NCBI GenBank assembly: GCA_016125385.1
Contig: WGLV01000010.1
Span: 62,001-126,000, forward strand
DNA length: 64,000 nucleotides
Direction of reading: 5' to 3'
Source: a bacterium
GTDB lineage: Bacteria > Hinthialibacterota > Hinthialibacteria > Hinthialibacterales > Hinthialibacteraceae
A program made the position numbers and the translations under genes. The notes under the pieces were generated by a model that saw nothing but the letters and a program-made list of their open reading frames with translations, was not told the origin of the DNA and made no database searches. Below are positions 2,713 to 21,123 of the stretch, piece after piece. Every line of letters starts with the position of its first letter. Positions within the stretch are counted from its first letter, which is position 1.

Positions 2713-4584
2713 TCAGAAATATATTGTGATGATTTTAACGTCGCGGTCGCGATCAGCGGCGACGCCAAGGACTTTTCCGTCCCGGCTGGCGGCGATGCTT
2801 TGTCCGCCATAGACCCAGCCAGTCCAGGGGCCATGCGAAATCGCCCCGACAACATCGGTCCCAACCACGGGGGCGCCGATGCGCTTCGCGGCGTTGACGA
2901 CGGTTTTCTCCAGTTCCTTACCATGGCCGGGCCACTTTTCTTCGGGCGCAGCCCAACCATAAGGAACGAGAACCAGATCGGGTTTTTGCGCCGCCATGCG
3001 GGCGAGATTGCCGTCGACGAACGTGTCAGCGCAGATGAGCATACCAATTCGGCCTAATGGCGTATCGACCGCAACGATCTCACGCCCCGGGACATAGGAC
3101 GGTTTCATCAACTCGTTCAAGATATTCATCTTGCGATGCTTCGAAAGGATGCGCCCCCTATCATCAATGAGAATGGCGGAGTCATACAGGGCGTCCCCGT
3201 CTTTTTCAGCCAATCCCACGCACAAATATACGGAATAACGTTTCGCGAGGTCACAAAGCCGATCGCTGGATGGACCGGGAATGGGATCGGCCCGGTCATG
3301 CGCGTCTGGATTCACCCAACCCAGCAGAGCGGTTTCAGGGAAGCAGACGATTTGAGCGCCAGCCTGGCTCGCTTCGTGGATCGCGTGTTCGATGCGAGCG
3401 AAGTTACCTTCACGGTCACCGTCCAGACAGACGATTTGCGCCATCGCAACGTTTACGGATGAGGGTTTCGAAGTCATGACGTTCGCCTCTCTGGGGCTGA
3501 GCCCCGTCGCCTGCACCAGCAGGCGCAAGGGTTCGTTCAAGGGATGAGGATGAGACGGCATTTCGCCTAGTCGGGTATCGTTCCAAGACATGACGATGCC
3601 CAAACTGGGAAGAACCGCCATGCCACGCATCCCGTTCTCATGGCCCAACGCGGTGAAGACATCGACTGGCGCATCCGGCCAGCGTAGTTTGCCGTCACGG
3701 CCCACGCCGTTAAGCCACCAGAGCCAGCTGTAACACCCCTCGTGATCGCACTGATTGTCGGGGATGGAGCGCGAACCGATTGAGCGCTGGCCTTCGATCA
3801 TGGACGCCGCTCCACCCGAAGCGCGTGGAATGGAAAGCGGCAGCGGTTGTGTGACCGCCATGCGAGCGAGTTCCGGCTTCAATAACGATTTCCCGCGCCA
3901 AGCTCCCTCGTGCATGAACAGCAGTCCAAAGCGGGCGAAATCACGCGGAGAGATCGACAATCGTCCGGCCCGGTCATCGGGGCCGAAGGCCAGCATGGAG
4001 GGTGAATCCTGACAACCGATCACGTCGGTCAGCCCCGGATGGAAGATTTTTTCATCCACATTCTGGAGCGTCGCGCCATACACTTTGCGGAAGAGGCAAT
4101 CCCAGAAGAGAGCCATCTGCCAATCGTTGTAATCAAAGGCGGTACCGGGGGCTTCTTCGACGCCATAGCAGGAAATCTGGTTGGCGAGGTGACGCCACGT
4201 GATTTCTTCACCGTGAGGGATTTCGGCGAGGCGCGGCTCCCATTCAACGACAGGTTGATCGAGGCTGGGGATCAAACCGTCCTGAAGCGCTTTCAGGAGA
4301 AAAAAGGAGTAAAACGGCTTTGCGGCGGAGGCTACGTCGCCGGGTCGATCAGCGTCTCCCCAGGTGAAGACCTGAAATCCATCCCGGGCGATAAAACCAC
4401 GTCCTCCGAGATACTCAGCAATCTTGTGTAACGCGGACGAGTCAAGCCCGGCTTGCTCGGGCGTATGGACCGGCCATGTTTCAGCGGGGAACTCGCCTGC
4501 GAAAGCGGACGCAACAGTCATCAGAACCAGTGCACCCATTGCGGCGATCAGGACGAAAGGATTCATTTTTATTGTTTTCATCAT
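2713..4584 (-). CDS. Fusion of a serine beta-lactamase-like domain and a nitrilase-family amidohydrolase
   Basis: A signal peptide (to about residue 29, AFA) precedes a class C beta-lactamase/DD-peptidase-like domain (residues ~35-360) with S86-AAK, PGTAFDYND (Y152) and GHENG (H315). A second complete domain (from M370, VNVAMAQIV) is a carbon-nitrogen hydrolase with the full Glu-Lys-Cys triad: FPET (E417), KHRK (K485), LICAD (C518). The first half resembles esterase-type beta-lactamases, the second hydrolyses amides or nitriles; substrates are unknown. The nitrilase half has its own possible start: on the coding strand AGAGAGG lies eight bases before the ATG of M370, so an independent cytoplasmic nitrilase product is conceivable. 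No clear ribosome site is seen at the annotated start. Confidence 0.85.
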   Translation of the reverse strand: MMKTIKMNPFVLIAAMGALVLMTVASAFAGEFPAETWPVHTPEQAGLDSSALHKIAEYLGGRGFIARDGFQVFTWGDADRPGDVASAAKPFYSFFLLKALQDGLIPSLDQPVVEWEPRLAEIPHGEEITWRHLANQISCYGVEEAPGTAFDYNDWQMALFWDCLFRKVYGATLQNVDEKIFHPGLTDVIGCQDSPSMLAFGPDDRAGRLSISPRDFARFGLLFMHEGAWRGKSLLKPELARMAVTQPLPLSIPRASGGAASMIEGQRSIGSRSIPDNQCDHEGCYSWLWWLNGVGRDGKLRWPDAPVDVFTALGHENGMRGMAVLPSLGIVMSWNDTRLGEMPSHPHPLNEPLRLLVQATGLSPREANVMTSKPSSVNVAMAQIVCLDGDREGNFARIEHAIHEASQAGAQIVCFPETALLGWVNPDAHDRADPIPGPSSDRLCDLAKRYSVYLCVGLAEKDGDALYDSAILIDDRGRILSKHRKMNILNELMKPSYVPGREIVAVDTPLGRIGMLICADTFVDGNLARMAAQKPDLVLVPYGWAAPEEKWPGHGKELEKTVVNAAKRIGAPVVGTDVVGAISHGPWTGWVYGGQSIAASRDGKVLGVAADRDRDVKIITIYF

Positions 4585-5919: not shown

Positions 5920-5968
5920 GTCGTCAATCCAATAAAACAGCAAAACCACTCTTTTGAAATTCATGATG

Positions 5969-6003
5969 ACCGCCTTTCTGTTGTGAAGGCGGTTTGTTTT
6001 TTA
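5969..6003 (+). terminator. Rho-independent terminator
   Basis: ACCGCCTT pairs with AAGGCGGT across a nine-base loop and is followed by TTTGTTTTTT. It lies 50 bases after the Gfo/Idh/MocA stop and separates it from the FlgG-like genes. Confidence 0.85.
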
Positions 6004-6088: not shown

Positions 6089-7435
6089 ATGAAAAGTTCA
6101 CGGAAACTCATGTGGCGATTTATTGAAAGCGCGGCGGCGGGATTCGTCATTACCGCGCTGATCGCGATCACGATTCCACGCATGTTGCGTCAGCAAGTGC
6201 GTTTCGAAGCGCATCATCCCGACGATACGCCGTATGAACTGATTAAAACGAACAATCCCGCCGATATCGCCATATTCGGACCGGGTTATTTCGAATTGAC
6301 CAATTCCAGTGATCCAAATGAGAAAGCGTACAGCCGGGTCAGTGAATTCTTGCGAGCGGGGAATACGATTCAGAGCATCCAGGGCTGGACGTTAACACCT
6401 CTGAACAACACGTTTCCCCTCGGCGGTACGATATGGGCCGATGGGCGTTTGATACAACAGCAACAGCAGCCCGGAACCAACACGCAAATTCAGACCATCC
6501 AGATCGCCTTGTTTCGCGATTCGCACGCGCTGGAGCCGGTGGGAGACGGGATTTACAAACCAACCGAACTCAGCGGCCCGCCCATGTTGACCCGTCCCTT
6601 CGGCCCCACCGGCTCGGGTATTCTGTTGCAGGGGTATCGGCTGAACTCGAAATCGGATTGGGCGGGAGCCAAATCGTTTCACATCGATCCCAATGCACTG
6701 AACGGGCCACTCGAATACCCGAACGATGCGCCGGTGACAAGCGAGCGCGAAACCGATTTCGGGATTAACGGGCGAGGATTTATGGCGGTGCTGCTGCCGA
6801 GCGGGGAGGTGGGTTTTACGCGGTATCTCCGAATCGCGCTTTGGAAGAACCGCATTCCAGTTCGCGAGTTTCCCCCCACACAGCCGTATAACCATTTGAC
6901 TTACCGGGAAGAACAACTCGAGTCAGCGCAGGAGCCGGTATTGTTCAATCTGGGATTGCCGGTGATTCGCCGGTTGATTGATTCAGATCAAGGCGGCGCG
7001 GCGGCGGTGCGAGCCGATCCACTGGCTTTCGCCAAACCGGTCAGCGAAGAAGAACTCGACGTGGTATACATCACCATCGAACAGGGGCTGCATCATCGAA
7101 CGCCGCCATTCGCATTTCAATGGCCGGGACAGGACGGGTTCTTCCAGTTGAATCCTCAAGCGGCGCCGGGCGTGAAAATCTCGGAGGAATTTCCATTGCT
7201 CATTGACGATGGAAAGATACCTTTGCGGATTCCCCGGGCGGAATACGCCGAAAGCCTCGAAGAGATTCCGTCGATTCAACTGTACGATTTCGACTCGCCG
7301 AGCAAGTTACGATACCGGCTGAATGGGGTATATATCGCCACAGACGAGTCGGGTACGCCTCGTCCGTTGAACGCAAGTGCGAGCGGTACGATCAAGGCGG
7401 GATTTCTTAACGTGGTGGAGGCGCTGGAACCATGA
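6089..7435 (+). CDS. Membrane-anchored protein with duplicated FlgG-like (flagellar rod/hook) modules, copy 1
   Basis: A 448-residue protein with one N-terminal membrane segment (~12-32, short basic N-terminus inside). Two FlgG-like modules follow. Module A runs ~59-185: ADIAIFGPGYFEL, then TIQIALFRDSHAL, DGIYKPTELSGPP and ILLQGYRL. Module B runs ~220-448: ETDFGINGRGFMAVLLPSGE, then SIQLYDFDSPSKL, NGVYIATDESGTP and GTIKAGFLNVVEAL. These match, in order, the FlgG/FlgE landmarks: a D-AI-G-GFF strand, an IQL-F-NP-L strand, a G-N-Y-T-SG-P turn, and a G-QG-LE-SNV end. The N-terminal SNNLANVNT helix of real axial proteins is absent and replaced by the anchor. GGGA lies about nine bases before the ATG. 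The stop overlaps the next start (ATGA). The function is unknown. Confidence 0.75.
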   Translation: MKSSRKLMWRFIESAAAGFVITALIAITIPRMLRQQVRFEAHHPDDTPYELIKTNNPADIAIFGPGYFELTNSSDPNEKAYSRVSEFLRAGNTIQSIQGWTLTPLNNTFPLGGTIWADGRLIQQQQQPGTNTQIQTIQIALFRDSHALEPVGDGIYKPTELSGPPMLTRPFGPTGSGILLQGYRLNSKSDWAGAKSFHIDPNALNGPLEYPNDAPVTSERETDFGINGRGFMAVLLPSGEVGFTRYLRIALWKNRIPVREFPPTQPYNHLTYREEQLESAQEPVLFNLGLPVIRRLIDSDQGGAAAVRADPLAFAKPVSEEELDVVYITIEQGLHHRTPPFAFQWPGQDGFFQLNPQAAPGVKISEEFPLLIDDGKIPLRIPRAEYAESLEEIPSIQLYDFDSPSKLRYRLNGVYIATDESGTPRPLNASASGTIKAGFLNVVEALEP

Positions 7436-8862
7436 AAAAAACGCCTCGATTCAATTCGCTGACCGTTATCATCGCCGGGTTATTATGTGGAGCAACGCTT
7501 GCGCTGACCGCGCGCGCGATATACCGGGCGTCAAATTTCCCCGAAGCACGCCGACTGTTTCCCGACTACGCGCCGTGTTATCTGGAGGAGACCGGCGATT
7601 CATTTGACATCGCCATTAACGGTCCGGGATTTTTCGCTTTCAAGCATGAAAGCGGTGCTTGGGTGTTCAGCCGGGAATCGCATTTCGTCATCGACGATCA
7701 AAACCGGCTGGCAAGTCCCTACGGGCTTCCTCTGGAGCCCGAGATCAGACTGGCGACGGACGCCGTTTCAATTCGAATCGACGCGCGGAGACAGGTGTTC
7801 GCCCTGAACGACCGTGGCGATTTAATACCAAGTCGAATCATCCAGTTATATCAATTTCCCAGCGAGCGGCATTACATCTGGGGCGGCGAACATTTCTGGT
7901 ATGGCGCGCGTACGGACTTGACGCCGCTTGAGATTCCATCCCGAAGCGATCAACCGGTTCTGCTGCAAGGCTATCGGCTGCGAAACGAGATTCCTCAGGA
8001 CGCGCCGCCCGGCCTCATCGTCAACAGCCCGCCGAGCGAGACCGATCCAACCAAAGATGAGATCATACAAACGGGGAAAGAGACTGATTTCGCCATCGTG
8101 GGCGAAGGCTTTTTCGCCGTGGAGATCGACGACGCCCTGACACCGATTTCAGTGAGAGGCTCTCCGATTGCGCAAGGGATGAACCGGCTGGGATTTACCC
8201 GATATCTATCTCTGGTCGAGAAGGATGATCTCGTTCAACGGACCTATCCCGAGCACGTCGTAAAAATCCAGACTCAAAGCCAACCCCCTCCTTCGGCCGC
8301 ACTTACATCCGGTTTGGGCTCTGCCCAATCGCCTGACGGGCAAGCAGCTACGCTCAAACAAGTTCCATCCACGTTTAAAAATCCCTTTTCGCCATTCACG
8401 CAGGCTCAACAGAATGTAAAGATCAATCCATATAACTCGACCAATATGAACAGAACCTCCACCTTCACAACCACTCTGACGATAAAAACGGTATTGCGTT
8501 CCGCAATCCGGGTCGCAAAAAGCATCGAAGCCGTCAAGCTGATTGAAGGCGTAGCGTCCAGCCCGCCGCCGGACGATTTTGTTGCTCCGAACCTCGGAAT
8601 CGCAGCGTTTGATTTCGATCTGTTTACCCCTACGGTCGATACCGGAACCACCGTGCATCAGGCGGGCGAACTGGTGAAAACGCTGGATGACATGAAGGAA
8701 ATCCGAATTTACCGCTTTGAGAATCCGCGGGCGTTGCAGTATCACCGGAATGGCGTGTACGTCGCGACGGATCTTTCGGGACCGCCGGTTGAGATTCCGC
8801 CGGAAGAAGCGAGCGGGACGATCAGGCAGGGATATCTGAACAACGCAATGCTGAACCCCTGA
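7432..8862 (+). CDS. Membrane-anchored protein with duplicated FlgG-like modules, copy 2
   Basis: A 476-residue paralogue of the preceding gene, translation-coupled by an ATGA overlap. It has a membrane segment at ~9-28 and module A at ~56-183 (DIAINGPGFFAF, FSRESHFVIDDQNRLASPYG, SIRIDARRQVFALNDRG, IIQLYQF, VLLQGYRL). Module B starts at ~217 (ETDFAIVGEGFFAVE, LGFTRYLSL) and is interrupted by a ~120-residue low-complexity S/T/P/Q-rich insert (~280-400). It closes with EIRIYRFENPRAL, NGVYVATDLSGPP and GTIRQGYLNNAMLNP. The FlgG resemblance is even clearer here, including the TRDGSF-like FSRESHF. No flagellar gene is in the window. A hairpin terminator lies just downstream. Confidence 0.78.
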   Translation: MKKTPRFNSLTVIIAGLLCGATLALTARAIYRASNFPEARRLFPDYAPCYLEETGDSFDIAINGPGFFAFKHESGAWVFSRESHFVIDDQNRLASPYGLPLEPEIRLATDAVSIRIDARRQVFALNDRGDLIPSRIIQLYQFPSERHYIWGGEHFWYGARTDLTPLEIPSRSDQPVLLQGYRLRNEIPQDAPPGLIVNSPPSETDPTKDEIIQTGKETDFAIVGEGFFAVEIDDALTPISVRGSPIAQGMNRLGFTRYLSLVEKDDLVQRTYPEHVVKIQTQSQPPPSAALTSGLGSAQSPDGQAATLKQVPSTFKNPFSPFTQAQQNVKINPYNSTNMNRTSTFTTTLTIKTVLRSAIRVAKSIEAVKLIEGVASSPPPDDFVAPNLGIAAFDFDLFTPTVDTGTTVHQAGELVKTLDDMKEIRIYRFENPRALQYHRNGVYVATDLSGPPVEIPPEEASGTIRQGYLNNAMLNP

Positions 8863-8902: not shown

Positions 8903-8926
8903 AAGGGCGAGAAAAATCTCGCCCTT
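8903..8926. terminator. Bidirectional hairpin terminator
   Basis: A perfect ten-pair stem AAGGGCGAGA/TCTCGCCCTT surrounds an AAAA loop, between the convergent FlgG-like operon and nadA. The A-rich left and T-rich right flanks are short, so efficiency is uncertain. Confidence 0.7.
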
Positions 8927-8949: not shown

Positions 8950-10008
8950 TCAGGGTTTGGGCATGGGGCCGGGTGGAATGGCCAGCATGCGGTCAATCGC
9001 TTTCTTTGCGCGCTGGGCGACCTGGGGATCGACATCAACTTCATATACCTCGTGTTCGAGGCTGTACAGAATTTTTTCCAGCGTGATCTTACGCATGTGC
9101 TGACAGTAAATGCTGCAACTACGCACGAATTCCACGCTGGGGAATTCAGACGCCAGATTGGCCGCCATTTCACACTCGGTGGCGAGATAGACGCGCTTCA
9201 GCGCTGGGTGCTCGACAATGTACTGCGCCATTTGTGAGGTGCTTCCGCAATAGTCGGCTTCAGCGACGACATCGGGCGGACATTCCCAATGGACAAGCAC
9301 GGCGGCTTCTTCACTGCCTTTCGGTATGTTGTACTGTTCACGAATCTGTTGGATGTGCTCAGGTTTAAACTGCTCGTGGACCTCGCAACGTCCGAAGCCG
9401 CCGTCGTATTTGCCGGGGTAAATCACTTCGATACCCCACGGTTCGATTTCTTTCTGGATGTTGGAACCCATGAGCGAGTCAGGGAAAAAGATCACCTGAC
9501 TGGTGTTGTATTCACGGGCGGCGTGATAGACGACCTTCATGGCGTTCGCGGACGTGCAGCAATAATCTGATTCGGCCTTGATGTCGGCGTAACTGTTGAC
9601 GTAAGTCACAACCGGAGCGCCGGGGTATTTTTCTTTATATTCGAGCACATCACCGGCTGAAAAGGGATCGGCGAGGCTGCAACCGGCTTCGAGATCGGCG
9701 ATCAACACTTTTTTTTCAGGGCTCAGTATCTTGGCGGTTTCGGCCATGAAACGGACGCCGTCGAAAAGAATGGTGGAATGAGTGGTTTCAGACGCACGAC
9801 GGCTGAGAGCAAGCGAATCGCCGCGTTCACGCGGCCCCGATAACTGGTACACCAGCGGGTGCATGTAGTTATGACCGAGAATCATTACATCTTTTTCTTC
9901 GCGCAGACGGAGGATCGCCTCGATCAACTCTCGCTTGGCCTGAAACTCCAAATATTGATCCGGCGCGGATTGTAACGACTGTCCGATCAAATCTAATTGG
10001 GAAGTCAT
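8950..10008 (-). CDS. nadA: Quinolinate synthase NadA
   Basis: The 352-residue protein condenses iminoaspartate with dihydroxyacetone phosphate to quinolinate in NAD biosynthesis, using a [4Fe-4S] cluster. Visible landmarks are MILGHNYMHP, FMAETAKILSPEK, IADLEAGCSLADPFS, TYVNSYADIKAESDYCCTSANA, FFPDSLMGSN and HWECPP; cluster cysteines are in AGCSLAD, HWECPP and the C-terminal SIYCQHMRKITLEKI. ATG 10008 is preferred because GGAG lies six bases upstream; the frame also permits a start at 10056 with no site. nadB and nadC are not in the window. The HNYM variant replaces the HYYQ of classical enzymes, which other long NadA proteins share. Confidence 0.95.
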   Translation of the reverse strand: MTSQLDLIGQSLQSAPDQYLEFQAKRELIEAILRLREEKDVMILGHNYMHPLVYQLSGPRERGDSLALSRRASETTHSTILFDGVRFMAETAKILSPEKKVLIADLEAGCSLADPFSAGDVLEYKEKYPGAPVVTYVNSYADIKAESDYCCTSANAMKVVYHAAREYNTSQVIFFPDSLMGSNIQKEIEPWGIEVIYPGKYDGGFGRCEVHEQFKPEHIQQIREQYNIPKGSEEAAVLVHWECPPDVVAEADYCGSTSQMAQYIVEHPALKRVYLATECEMAANLASEFPSVEFVRSCSIYCQHMRKITLEKILYSLEHEVYEVDVDPQVAQRAKKAIDRMLAIPPGPMPKP

Positions 10009-10279
10009 GCTTAACTCCAGACGGTTCAGCGGCGCATCCATGCAATTCAGAATCACTGATTACCAGATTCACCTAATTCTAACAAACAACATAGTGTAAA
10101 TCGCGCAGTCATGCTTTTCCATACCCACACGGCATGAAAAATCTCCAGACGCACTTTGAGAAATATCCACTGTCTTTAGTATAACAACGACGGAGAAAAA
10201 CCCGGGGCGCCAAATTCCGCGTGAGCGCAACAACTACTGAAACGGCTCCGAGGTATTATCTCGAAATTCAGATCGCTTT

Positions 10280-11128
10280 ATGGATACCACCACAATGAGC
10301 GCAAAACAAACTCAACAACCCTCCCGATCAACGAAAATCGCATTAACCATCGCGGGTTCCGACCCATCCGGCGGCGCGGGGCTTCAGGCTGACTTGAAAA
10401 CGTTTCATCAACATGGCGTGTACGGGATGAGCGTGGTAACGCTGCTCACCGTTCAGAACACACGCGAAGTCAGCGCCGTGGAAACACTCGACCCTGATTT
10501 CATCACCCGGCAGATCGCGGCGGTAGTCTCCGATATTCCACCTCAAGCCGCCAAGACGGGCGCGCTGGGAAGCGTCGCGATTGTGGAATGCGTCGCAAAG
10601 GCGGTGGAAACGTTTGAGTTTCCGCTGGTCGTCGATCCCGTCATGGTCAGTAAACACGGGCACAGTCTGATCGCACCGGAAGTGACTGAGGCATTAAAAC
10701 AGCGCCTGATTCCCAAAGCGTTTTTCATTACGCCGAATTTGTATGAAGCACAGGAACTGACCGGACTGTCGATTCACGATGAAGCGGGTATGACTCAGGC
10801 GGCGAAACAGATGATGGAGATGGGGGCGCAAAACGTGGTGATCAAAGGCGGCGGGCATCCATCCATCGGATACGACCTGCTGGCTTGTGGAGATGGAACA
10901 GAAATCATCGCGACGGAATTGATCGATACGAGAAATACGCACGGTTCCGGATGCGTGTTCAGCGCGGCGATCGCGGCGAGGCTGGCGCGAGGCGAAGACG
11001 CCCGCTCGGCGGCGCTGGGCTCGAAACGATTTATCACGGACGCGATTCGTACCAATCCAGGTTTGGGAGAAGGGCGCGGTCCGGTCAATCTGTTCACATC
11101 CGCGGAACGTTACATATCCGAAGGATGA
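10280..11128 (+). CDS. thiD: Hydroxymethylpyrimidine/phosphomethylpyrimidine kinase ThiD
   Basis: The 282-residue ribokinase-fold enzyme phosphorylates HMP and HMP-phosphate in thiamine synthesis. Diagnostic segments are TIAGSDPSGGAGLQADLKTF at the start, VYGMSVVTLLTVQNT, VVDPVMVSKHGHSL, ITPNLYEAQELTG, VVIKGGGHP and the anion-hole TRNTHGSGCVFSAAIAA. No other thi gene and no TPP-riboswitch-like leader is seen. The start is uncertain: ATG 10280 and ATG 10295 both lack a good ribosome site. Its last 19 bases overlap the end of the convergent PpiC-type gene. Confidence 0.95.
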   Translation: MDTTTMSAKQTQQPSRSTKIALTIAGSDPSGGAGLQADLKTFHQHGVYGMSVVTLLTVQNTREVSAVETLDPDFITRQIAAVVSDIPPQAAKTGALGSVAIVECVAKAVETFEFPLVVDPVMVSKHGHSLIAPEVTEALKQRLIPKAFFITPNLYEAQELTGLSIHDEAGMTQAAKQMMEMGAQNVVIKGGGHPSIGYDLLACGDGTEIIATELIDTRNTHGSGCVFSAAIAARLARGEDARSAALGSKRFITDAIRTNPGLGEGRGPVNLFTSAERYISEG

Positions 11129-12369
11129 TCGTCAGGGCGATTGGATTCAGGCGTGTTCAATTTAACCAGAAGTTTGAAATCAAAACGGTTCAGCAGATTT
11201 TGCGCTGTCACGCTTTCGGAGAGCCAGGGGGGTTCTTCGTCGCTGGAAATACCTTTGCGCCGTTTGTAGGCTTCGACTCTTTTCTTGAATACGGAATCGG
11301 CGACGCGAAACCTGTGGTATGCCTCTGTTTTCGCGGCGATTTCCTCGTCTTTGTCATACCCTTTGGCGTACGCCGCCTTGAGCAGCGCGGCATGGTAGCG
11401 CTCTTCGTGCCCCTCGTCGCCGGGGTAGCTGAGCCCGAGCAGGTTATAACGATGACGCATGCTTTTTTGTTCGAGAAGCATGGCGCGAATCTGATCCTGA
11501 CATTGATCGAAGGGGAGAAGACCTTCATCGATCTTGTCAATCAGTTGAATGAAATGAAGCGTATCGCCAACCTGTACGGGGCCGGTAATTTCGCGGATAT
11601 CAAGCGCCCAAAGCGCTTTTTCAAATGGAACGGATGTGACGCCCTTGCCGACCCAGCCAAGGTAACCATCGCTGGCGGCGGTTTCCGACTGGGAATACTG
11701 GACAAGATCGTGAAAATCAGCGCCTTCGTTCAATTCGCGTGAGATGACCGCCGCCGTCACCGCCTCCGGGCTATCGTCGTAGGATGGATGAGATTCGTCA
11801 TACACCATGACGTGACGAGCCAGGCGCTTGCCTTCCTGAAAAAACTCGCCGGGGTTTTTCGCGTAATACGACAGCATTTCCTGTTGAGTGATTTCAGGCG
11901 CGATCTGGTCCAGCTCCGACTCAAGCCGTTCCAGCATCAACCCCTCACGATAGGTGTTCGTATCTTCTTCCACATCCGGCGGGACGGCTACGTTCTCATC
12001 CAGCAGCACGTTGACGATCACGATGTGCTGGATAATGCGTTTGAGCAGCGCCTGGGCGAATTCCTGCTCAAGCCATTCGGGCGCTTCGGAATCGAGGCCG
12101 TCCATATCTTCCGGAGTGAGTTCAAGCGCGCGGAGGATCGGGCTGTCTTCCGTCGGCGGATGGGCGATGTAACCGCGAACATCCTCATCGGTGACCTGAC
12201 CGCCGTCATAAACCGCCAGGACTCCGGATTCGACCAGCTGTCGCATATGAGACGCGTTATGAACGCGCATCAGCAACGCAACGGCGATCGCAACCAGAAC
12301 GGGCGCGGCGATCGCCAGAAGAACTCGCCGGCGTTCCGGAGTCAGTAAGGATTTTCGTCTTCGTTTCAT
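11110..12369 (-). CDS. Membrane-anchored PpiC-type peptidyl-prolyl isomerase (SurA/PrsA-like)
   Basis: The 419-residue protein has a basic N-terminus and one membrane segment (RVLLAIAAPVLVAIAVALLM, ~15-35), then an alpha-helical chaperone region, and a parvulin domain at about residues 180-290 (GKRLARHVMVYDES, ELNEGADFHDLVQYSQSETAASDGYLGWVGKG, VPFEKALWALDIREITGPVQVGDTLHFIQLIDK). The likely role is periplasmic folding of exported or outer-membrane proteins. The ATG at 12369 is chosen over an in-frame TTG at 12396 because MKRRRK is a natural signal-anchor start; neither has a strong ribosome site. The C-terminal ~130 residues are charged and helical. The end overlaps thiD convergently. Confidence 0.85.
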   Translation of the reverse strand: MKRRRKSLLTPERRRVLLAIAAPVLVAIAVALLMRVHNASHMRQLVESGVLAVYDGGQVTDEDVRGYIAHPPTEDSPILRALELTPEDMDGLDSEAPEWLEQEFAQALLKRIIQHIVIVNVLLDENVAVPPDVEEDTNTYREGLMLERLESELDQIAPEITQQEMLSYYAKNPGEFFQEGKRLARHVMVYDESHPSYDDSPEAVTAAVISRELNEGADFHDLVQYSQSETAASDGYLGWVGKGVTSVPFEKALWALDIREITGPVQVGDTLHFIQLIDKIDEGLLPFDQCQDQIRAMLLEQKSMRHRYNLLGLSYPGDEGHEERYHAALLKAAYAKGYDKDEEIAAKTEAYHRFRVADSVFKKRVEAYKRRKGISSDEEPPWLSESVTAQNLLNRFDFKLLVKLNTPESNRPDDHPSDM

Positions 12370-12455
12370 GGTCGGAAATACTGTATCGCGGCGCAATTGA
12401 AAACCTAGTGGCGGCGATGGATCGATCCTGATTATCCATAGATGGAAGAATTCGC

Positions 12456-12483
12456 TTGACGCTGGGAAAGGAATCAGTATGAT
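12456..12483 (+). promoter_or_regulatory. Predicted sigma70-type promoter
   Basis: TTGACG (12456-12461) and TATGAT (12478-12483) are separated by 16 bases. Transcription would start near 12490, leaving a ~290-base leader before the small gene at 12779. Confidence 0.6.
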
Positions 12484-12496
12484 TTTAAGTAAGGTG

Positions 12497-12565
12497 GAAA
12501 GTTCCGTTCGAAACGTCTCTGGTGAAGAATGTTATACCAGTTCGATCTTCGCCAAATGAACTTTC
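12497..12565 (+). ncRNA. Candidate structured leader RNA with a three-way junction
   Basis: Hand folding gives an outer stem GAAAGTTC (12497-12504) with GAACTTTC (12558-12565); an adjacent hairpin CGTT-CGA-AACG (12505-12515); and a nine-pair stem TGGTGAAGA (12520-12528) with TCTTCGCCA (12546-12554, one G-U pair) around a 17-base loop. It begins about seven bases after the predicted transcription start. No known RNA family was recognised, and no T-run follows, so it would be a 5' leader rather than a free small RNA. Confidence 0.35.
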
Positions 12566-19986: not shown

Positions 19987-21123
19987 ATGAAGAAAAAGCT
20001 GGTCTGGTTGATTCTGATTGTAATTCTCGTGGTTCTGGCCGCGGCGGGCGGATATATCTATACGGAATATTCAAAATGGAATACGCCGTGGGGCAAAGAA
20101 GACGAGACTTTTATTATTAACGTACAGGAAGGCTGGTCCGCGCGGCAGATCGCCGACGAGTTGCGCGATAAAGGCATCATCGACAACACGGAAATCTTTC
20201 TCATCATCGCCGACCTTCGCGGGATCGGCGACAAGCTGAAAGCCGGCGAATATGAGTTCGATGGAACGCAGACCCCTTACGAGGTACTGAATCTGCTCGC
20301 CATCGGCTGGAACCGCCGGCGGCCCCTGGTGATTCCCGAAGGATACACTCAACCGCAGATCGCAAAGGCCTGTGAAGACCTCGAAATCTGCTCTCAGGAA
20401 GACCTGTTTAAGGAATTCAATCAGGTAAGCATGTTCTCGTCCGTGGTTTCGCCGCCGGACGGCAAGACGAATCCCGGCCTGGAAGGCGTTTTGTTTCCCG
20501 ATACGTATTACTACATCAAAAATACGCCTCCAGTAAAAATCGTCGACCGGTTTCTCAAACGGTTCAATGAAAAGTTCAACCCTATCACGGATGAAGCCGT
20601 CAAAGCAGGCAAGACCTGGTGGTGGCAACAGGACGACACCCGTGAATCGGAATCGGTTCATCGAATCGTCATCATGGCCTCAATCATCGAACGGGAAGTC
20701 AAACACGACGAAGACCGCCCACTGGTCGCGTCGGTGTTCGTCAACCGGTTAAAGAAAAACATGCCGTTACAGGCGGACGCCACCGTGCATTACGCCATCG
20801 GCGACTGGACGCGCCCTCTGACCAGCACCGATCTGCAAATCAACTCTCCCTACAATACGTATAAAAACGCGGGACTTCCGCCCGCCGCGATCTGCAACCC
20901 CGGTGAAGAGGCGTTGCGAGCCGCCGCCATGCCGCCGGAAACGGATTATCTGTATTACGTAACGATGGCGGACGGGAAAGCGCGCTTTACAGCGGATTAC
21001 AACGAGTTTCTGCAATTCAAACGAGAATACAAACAGGAACGGCGCGACATTCGGGAAAAGATGGCCAACGACACGGCGGATGAACCAGCGGCGGATACGA
21101 CACAACCCGCGACCACGCCCTGA
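19987..21123 (+). CDS. mltG: Endolytic murein transglycosylase MltG
   Basis: The 378-residue protein has one N-terminal membrane anchor (VWLILIVILVVLAAAGGYIY), a LysM-like YceG N-domain (EGWSARQIADELRDKGIIDN, GDKLKAGEYEF), PEGYTQPQIAK, LEGVLFPDTYYY, and the catalytic glutamate in MASIIEREV. The later LQADATVHYAIG, INSPYNTYKNAGLPPAAICNPGEEALRAA and YYVTMADG segments are diagnostic. It cleaves nascent glycan strands and helps end glycan polymerisation at the inner membrane. ATG 19987 is preferred over 19966 because of GGAG nine bases upstream and the basic MKKK start. The last ~25 residues are a T/P/A-rich tail. A strong terminator follows. Confidence 0.95.
   Translation: MKKKLVWLILIVILVVLAAAGGYIYTEYSKWNTPWGKEDETFIINVQEGWSARQIADELRDKGIIDNTEIFLIIADLRGIGDKLKAGEYEFDGTQTPYEVLNLLAIGWNRRRPLVIPEGYTQPQIAKACEDLEICSQEDLFKEFNQVSMFSSVVSPPDGKTNPGLEGVLFPDTYYYIKNTPPVKIVDRFLKRFNEKFNPITDEAVKAGKTWWWQQDDTRESESVHRIVIMASIIEREVKHDEDRPLVASVFVNRLKKNMPLQADATVHYAIGDWTRPLTSTDLQINSPYNTYKNAGLPPAAICNPGEEALRAAAMPPETDYLYYVTMADGKARFTADYNEFLQFKREYKQERRDIREKMANDTADEPAADTTQPATTP

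Follow-up and report, generated by a model that had tools for sequence, protein, structure and literature searches.

Paired proteins with duplicated FlgG-type rod-surface domains and a predicted membrane anchor, encoded outside the flagellar operons

Two neighbouring genes in a stretch of bacterial DNA encode proteins that resemble the flagellar rod, and the question is what such proteins could do at a locus away from other flagellar genes. The window, that is, the whole stretch of 64,000 nucleotides analysed here (G000:C76:62001-126000), carries on its forward strand gene 1 (P0001, positions 6089..7435, 448 amino acids) and gene 2 (P0002, 7432..8862, 476 amino acids), which overlap by four bases, ATGA. 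For both, the open reading frame, the Pfam and NCBIfam matches, the AlphaFold models and the Foldseek searches point to a transmembrane anchor followed by two modules of the FlgG D1 type. A sequence-only reading had described two ATGA-coupled genes with four FlgG modules, and this description was borne out by the open reading frames and by module scores that were well above those of shuffled sequences in all four cases.

Both proteins matched the NCBIfam model of the FlgEFG subfamily, TIGR03506, with 81.3 bits (E 1e-22), above its cut-off of 70.25. The FlgG equivalog TIGR02488 was matched in three stretches per protein (gene 1, E 4.7e-19 and 68.9 bits; gene 2, E 3.5e-23 and 82.4 bits), in both cases far under its equivalog cut-off of 252.75 bits, and the Pfam D1 domain of FlgE/F/G, PF22692, was found in gene 2 with an E-value of 1.5e-12 and in gene 1 with 6.1e-6 (26.7 bits, slightly under the cut-off of 27). 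The modules were also scored singly against an HMM made from 61 FlgG D1 domains, with members of the family excluded. The best of 3,300 shuffles, which keep composition only, reached 8.2 bits against this HMM, and seven homologous modules from the relatives described below gave 38.8-121.5 bits. Chance resemblance to FlgG was ruled out by the Pfam and NCBIfam matches together with the module scores relative to the shuffles.

In both proteins module 1 is unbroken, whereas module 2 is split into two halves by an insert of about 125-140 residues. In gene 1, module 1 is a complete FlgG D1 (amino acids ~50-190, positions 6236..6658) that was recognised by NCBIfam, the model, Foldseek and the HMM (62.9 bits). 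The first half of its module 2 (~216-262, 6734..6874; Pfam/NCBIfam, model and HMM) is followed by an insert modelled with low confidence and common to the orthologue in a second genus (~263-386, 6875..7246), and then by the second half (~392-443, 7262..7417; NCBIfam, model and HMM), the whole of module 2 scoring 36.1 bits. The arrangement is repeated in gene 2, with a complete module 1 (~50-186, 7579..7989; Pfam/NCBIfam, model, Foldseek and HMM, 58.8 bits), the first half of module 2 (~212-274, 8065..8253; NCBIfam, model and HMM), an insert predicted by the model to be disordered, with a pLDDT of about 30 (~275-413, 8254..8670), and the second half (~419-470, 8686..8841; NCBIfam, model and HMM), with 45.0 bits for the whole of module 2. 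No Pfam family was matched by the inserts.

AlphaFold, run with alignments of 16 rows for both proteins, predicted the FlgG D1 fold in the two of them. The cores of module 1 were modelled with confidence, with pLDDT values of 67-92 in gene 1 and mostly about 90 in gene 2; the halves of module 2 reached moderate values (about 65-90), and the inserts stayed under 50. Foldseek searches against the PDB returned FlgG for both proteins, the crystal fragment 6jf2 giving a TM-score of 0.82-0.83 on the target. The FlgG D1/beta fold, whose absence had been named beforehand as a possible refutation, is present in the predicted structures. When the family profile was compared with PDB sequences, FlgG was again the best match (E 4.3e-31), followed by FlgE, and FlgF was the weakest (6.8e-5).

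A single clear hydrophobic segment (Kyte-Doolittle value, KD, 2.0) stands at the N-terminus of both proteins and was modelled by AlphaFold as one long helix, in agreement with the single membrane segment per protein that had been predicted. In gene 1 it spans amino acids 11-29 (6119..6175; model helix 3-40) and is likely an uncleaved signal anchor, and in gene 2 amino acids 9-27 (7456..7512; model helix 9-34). An N-terminal hydrophobic helix was present in six of six homologues, with KD values of 1.8-2.95, an N-flank of +2 to +4 and a C-flank that is positive too. For the window proteins, a signal anchor seems likelier than a cleaved signal peptide. Between the anchor and module 1, a P-D motif is common to the window proteins and to their homologues at L044, L045 and L046, and the six membrane-anchored FlgG-like proteins of these four loci all have proline as the last residue.

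In FlgG, the D0 core of the rod is built from the helices at the two termini, and D1 occupies approximately residues 91-222 (PMC5288503). In the window proteins, the modules start right at the beginning of D1, and both proteins end just past it, lacking the D0/Dc segments and the NNLAN motif. As had been claimed, the polymerising ends are absent: neither Flg_bb_rod (PF00460) nor Flg_bbr_C (PF06429) was found in either protein with Pfam at E<=10, and a genome-wide search with PF06429 matched FlgG, FlgF, FlgE, FlgK and others, genes 1 and 2 not being among them. The missing ends and the predicted membrane segment argue against export by the flagellar type III route and against polymerisation into a rod.

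The neighbours of the gene pair encode a Gfo/Idh oxidoreductase, NadA, a phosphomethylpyrimidine kinase and a PpiC-type rotamase, and the claim that the window has no flagellar gene agrees with a by-eye reading of its list of open reading frames. A terminator-like stem 3' of the upstream Gfo/Idh gene (5968..5994, forward strand) suggests that the two genes are transcribed as a unit of their own, having in mind that terminator-like sites overall are little above the shuffle mean. Sequence inspection also revealed, in the interval that separates the pair from the convergent nadA, a 10-bp inverted repeat without mismatches (8903..8926), a possible bidirectional terminator. With a crude consensus test, no sigma-54 or sigma-28 box scoring above shuffles was found upstream of gene 1; in the same test, a sigma-54-like box was seen upstream of flgB and flgF and was absent upstream of the pair. 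Elsewhere in the window, a gene on the reverse strand (2713-4584) encodes a carbon-nitrogen hydrolase domain joined with a serine hydrolase domain of the beta-lactamase type, and a gene of similar length occupies the same position in a second genus (L044:3030-4892).

Relatives were searched in 386 genomes, 14 of the same phylum and about 370 from outside it, taking the two proteins singly and a profile of the family as queries and scoring the best four candidates per genome. Family members were detected in only three of the six genomes of the same family, and none was found in the approximately 370 genomes outside the phylum. A second genus (G001) has the same pair in the same neighbourhood (L044:10119-12748), again with a 4-base overlap and with 41-43% identity; a 199-residue version with one module (L045:8981-9580) and a compact version of 337 residues that has two modules but lacks a large insert (L046:9670-10683) were the other members. 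All remaining matches, among the best four candidates per genome, were FlgG-type proteins aligned essentially from D1 onward, and the score gap was wide, with 256 bits for the weakest family member versus 125 for the best FlgG. A scan of genome contigs produced solely FlgG-like matches of alphaproteobacteria, and a search with one conserved pattern gave no viral homologues. The statement that no equivalent has been described also stands, as far as a limited search of open-licence literature goes, in which no published account of such proteins was located.

In the trees, the modules lie with FlgG and apart from the FlgF rows (99% SH-aLRT). When the modules were analysed in a tree with long branches, built from an alignment without the insert of module 2, the first modules clustered together (97) and so did the second modules (100), and the duplication of the module therefore probably preceded that of the gene. 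The two least diverged first modules were placed in the best tree beside the FlgG proteins of their own family and of its sister family, an unsure position (72/93), and in the analysis with these two an origin jointly with orphan FlgG-like genes was neither shown nor rejected (p-AU 0.51). Between the two genera, third codon positions showed 0.66-0.70 differences per site versus 0.34-0.45 elsewhere, as expected for genes under protein-level selection. Most likely, the proteins are lineage-specific paralogues of FlgG.

Other unusual rod-type proteins occur in these genomes. Several genomes of the phylum encode orphan full-length FlgG-like proteins of 238-244 residues in places other than the flg operon (L081, L072, L073, L074 and L075), and these form a clade of their own in a tree that included four of the five. 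In orphan mini rod proteins of about 105-112 residues, the D0 segments of the two ends are retained (NNLAN..T and the C-terminal helix) and the whole D1 is absent (L050:7454-7771, that is, G000:C42:85453-85770, and L117, on the minus strand of G004:C115, about 20672-20990). They are the reverse of the window proteins, and G000 has both types in one genome; a full-length relative, D1 included, was found in G005 (L114:7767-8525).

The sequence-only reading had described the pair as "without a flagellum", and this is true of the window only, as the same genome has a normal flagellar gene set with its own FlgF and FlgG. These two are clustered with FlgA, FlgH and FlgI on contig C71, and further contigs carry FliL-FliM-FliN-FliO-FliP-FliR-FlhB-FlhA-FlhF (C3), FlgD, FlgE and FliK (C50), FlgK and FlgL (C13), and FlgB, FliF, FliG, FliH, FliI and FliJ (C74); the genome also has seven flagellin-domain matches, and the whole set is spread over other contigs and over parts of the window's own contig that lie beyond the window. 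Ten of these proteins were confirmed with Pfam and the remainder were named from their sequence; as judged by gene content, the host is flagellated. FlhA, FlgI, flagellins and a Rod-binding domain of the FlgJ type were present in all carrier genomes, and no carrier without flagellar genes appeared among the genomes searched, so that the "non-flagellar system" proposed before is unproven. That homologues are always embedded in complete flagellar operons, the other refutation considered beforehand, applied to none of the four loci (the window, L044, L045 and L046).

Two further explanations that involve the flagellar gene content were discarded. A loss of the FlgJ-type Rod-binding domain made good by the gene pair was ruled out, this domain being present in nine of nine genomes tested. 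A second flagellar system near the window was also rejected: only two adjacent large flagellin-like genes, of about 813 and 854 residues, lie about 28-30 kb to its left on the same contig (L112:7484-9925 and 9986-12550, G000:C76), and no further flagellar gene was recognised in their surroundings. Adjacent counterparts of these two genes exist in G001, G004 and G005, and each genome has 4-7 flagellin-domain matches on scattered contigs. The G004 genome, of the same family, has FlhA, FlgI, flagellins and a FlgE-sized protein with a rod C-terminal domain; its FlgG was not found by profile at E<=1e-8, perhaps because of an assembly gap.

With respect to function, our preferred but tentative reading, from sequence and models, is that the proteins are static periplasmic brackets that are anchored in the inner membrane, carry the rod-surface domain and probably sit at the basal body of the flagellum. 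In this view, paralogues of FlgG shed the D0/Dc segments at both termini and acquired an N-terminal membrane anchor, so that the general (Sec-type) pathway would deliver them to the periplasmic side of the inner membrane, where they would remain. An axial tube could not be formed in the absence of D0, and the anchor should hold the proteins in the inner membrane, oriented towards the periplasm, which is also where the rod, the MS ring and the P ring are found. Each would be a bracket with two D1 domains in series; we infer this topology, and also that the products of gene 1 and gene 2 act together. The D1 domain of FlgG is the smooth surface of the rod (PMC5288503), with which FlgI makes contact by charge complementarity, the Salmonella FlgG residues D109, D154 and E203 being the acidic ones that face the P ring (PMC8298488). 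As a basal-body accessory, the pair would touch what FlgG D1 touches, either neighbouring rod and hook subunits or FlgI/FlgH, and might serve as a collar, a spacer or an assembly aid. This role is supported by FlgG being the best PDB match by sequence and by structure, by the grouping of the modules with FlgG, by the flagellar gene content of every carrier and by the conservation of the pair and its neighbourhood in a second genus. Against it, the genes are unlinked to any flagellar operon and have no sigma-54-like box, the proteins are missing from one half of the flagellated members of the family, the branches are so long that the rod-packing surfaces may be lost, and the acidic positions facing the P ring, as read from alignments, are only partly kept.

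The lack of linkage and of a sigma-54-like box, the patchy presence and the partly kept acidic positions make a role elsewhere in the envelope almost as likely. The anchored D1 modules could there build a scaffold, ring or spacer of their own in the periplasm, in which the fold would provide no more than a robust beta-domain for lateral contacts, the gene 1 and gene 2 products being heteromeric partners, and this exaptation is a serious if somewhat less probable possibility. It accounts for four unlinked loci out of four, for the patchy presence among flagellated relatives, the fast divergence, the gene-specific inserts and the missing box, but all carriers are flagellated by gene content, with none lacking a flagellum among the genomes searched, and no partner genes are conserved beyond the housekeeping neighbours common to G001. 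In its strictest form, a lineage-specific heteromeric tandem-D1 structure wholly off the flagellum and serving as an envelope ring or spacer, we consider it doubtful. A regulatory decoy, in which membrane-held D1 would bind free FlgG/FlgE or FlgI and thereby limit or time the assembly of the rod, hook or P ring, is improbable. A D1-only protein adds no D0 helices to the axial tube, D0 being its core (PMC5288503), and could keep lateral contacts, and single-module (L045) and compact two-module (L046) versions do exist; however, a decoy needs neither duplicated modules nor large inserts, and would fit poorly with P-ring-facing residues kept only in part. Very improbable, finally, is a decaying duplicate with no present function, which the very long branches and the low-complexity insert of gene 2 could suggest, since both genera keep the genes intact, overlapping and in the same gene order, at the identity given above, their third codon positions are the most diverged and their core folds are confident.

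The locus is a real, unusual and rare domain rearrangement of a flagellar part, and the pair is probably an add-on in a flagellated bacterium rather than a separate system. The D1 of the rod can apparently be recruited as a separate building block, with the terminal helices discarded and the surface domain duplicated and fixed to the membrane. At the basal body, the proteins would be a previously undescribed static component built from the shell domain of the rotor itself; away from it, they would be a case of a flagellar axial fold exapted outside the flagellum. Within one bacterial family, the versions with one module, with two modules and as a gene pair form a series by which the order of these events can be tested.

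Flagellar axial proteins are normally defined by paired terminal helices. The window proteins share with FlgG (TIGR02488; PDB 6jf2 and 7cbm) the D1 fold and its sequence landmarks, with about 140 residues per module, and differ from it in the absence of the D0/Dc helical ends, the N-terminal membrane anchor, the two modules in each protein, the inserts in module 2 and the location outside the flg operon of a genome that has its own FlgG besides. With FlgF, of the proximal rod, they have a D1 domain in common, but the modules fall outside the FlgF rows and FlgF was the weakest hit in the PDB search. FlgI and FlgH, of the P and L rings, would be similar, if the basal-body reading holds, as static parts around a rotating rod, although no similarity to the window proteins appeared in any search made; they are not known to be anchored by an N-terminal inner-membrane helix. 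The hook protein FlgE (PDB 6jzt and 1wlg) differs in that the inserts are not recognisable as its D2, and in that the window proteins have no D0, are putatively membrane-anchored and match it more weakly than FlgG. On the other hand, the D1 of FlgE is interrupted by its D2 domain (PMC5288503), and is split mid-way by an inserted stretch as in module 2, a split of the D1 match that an HMM scan detected also in the FlgE of the host.
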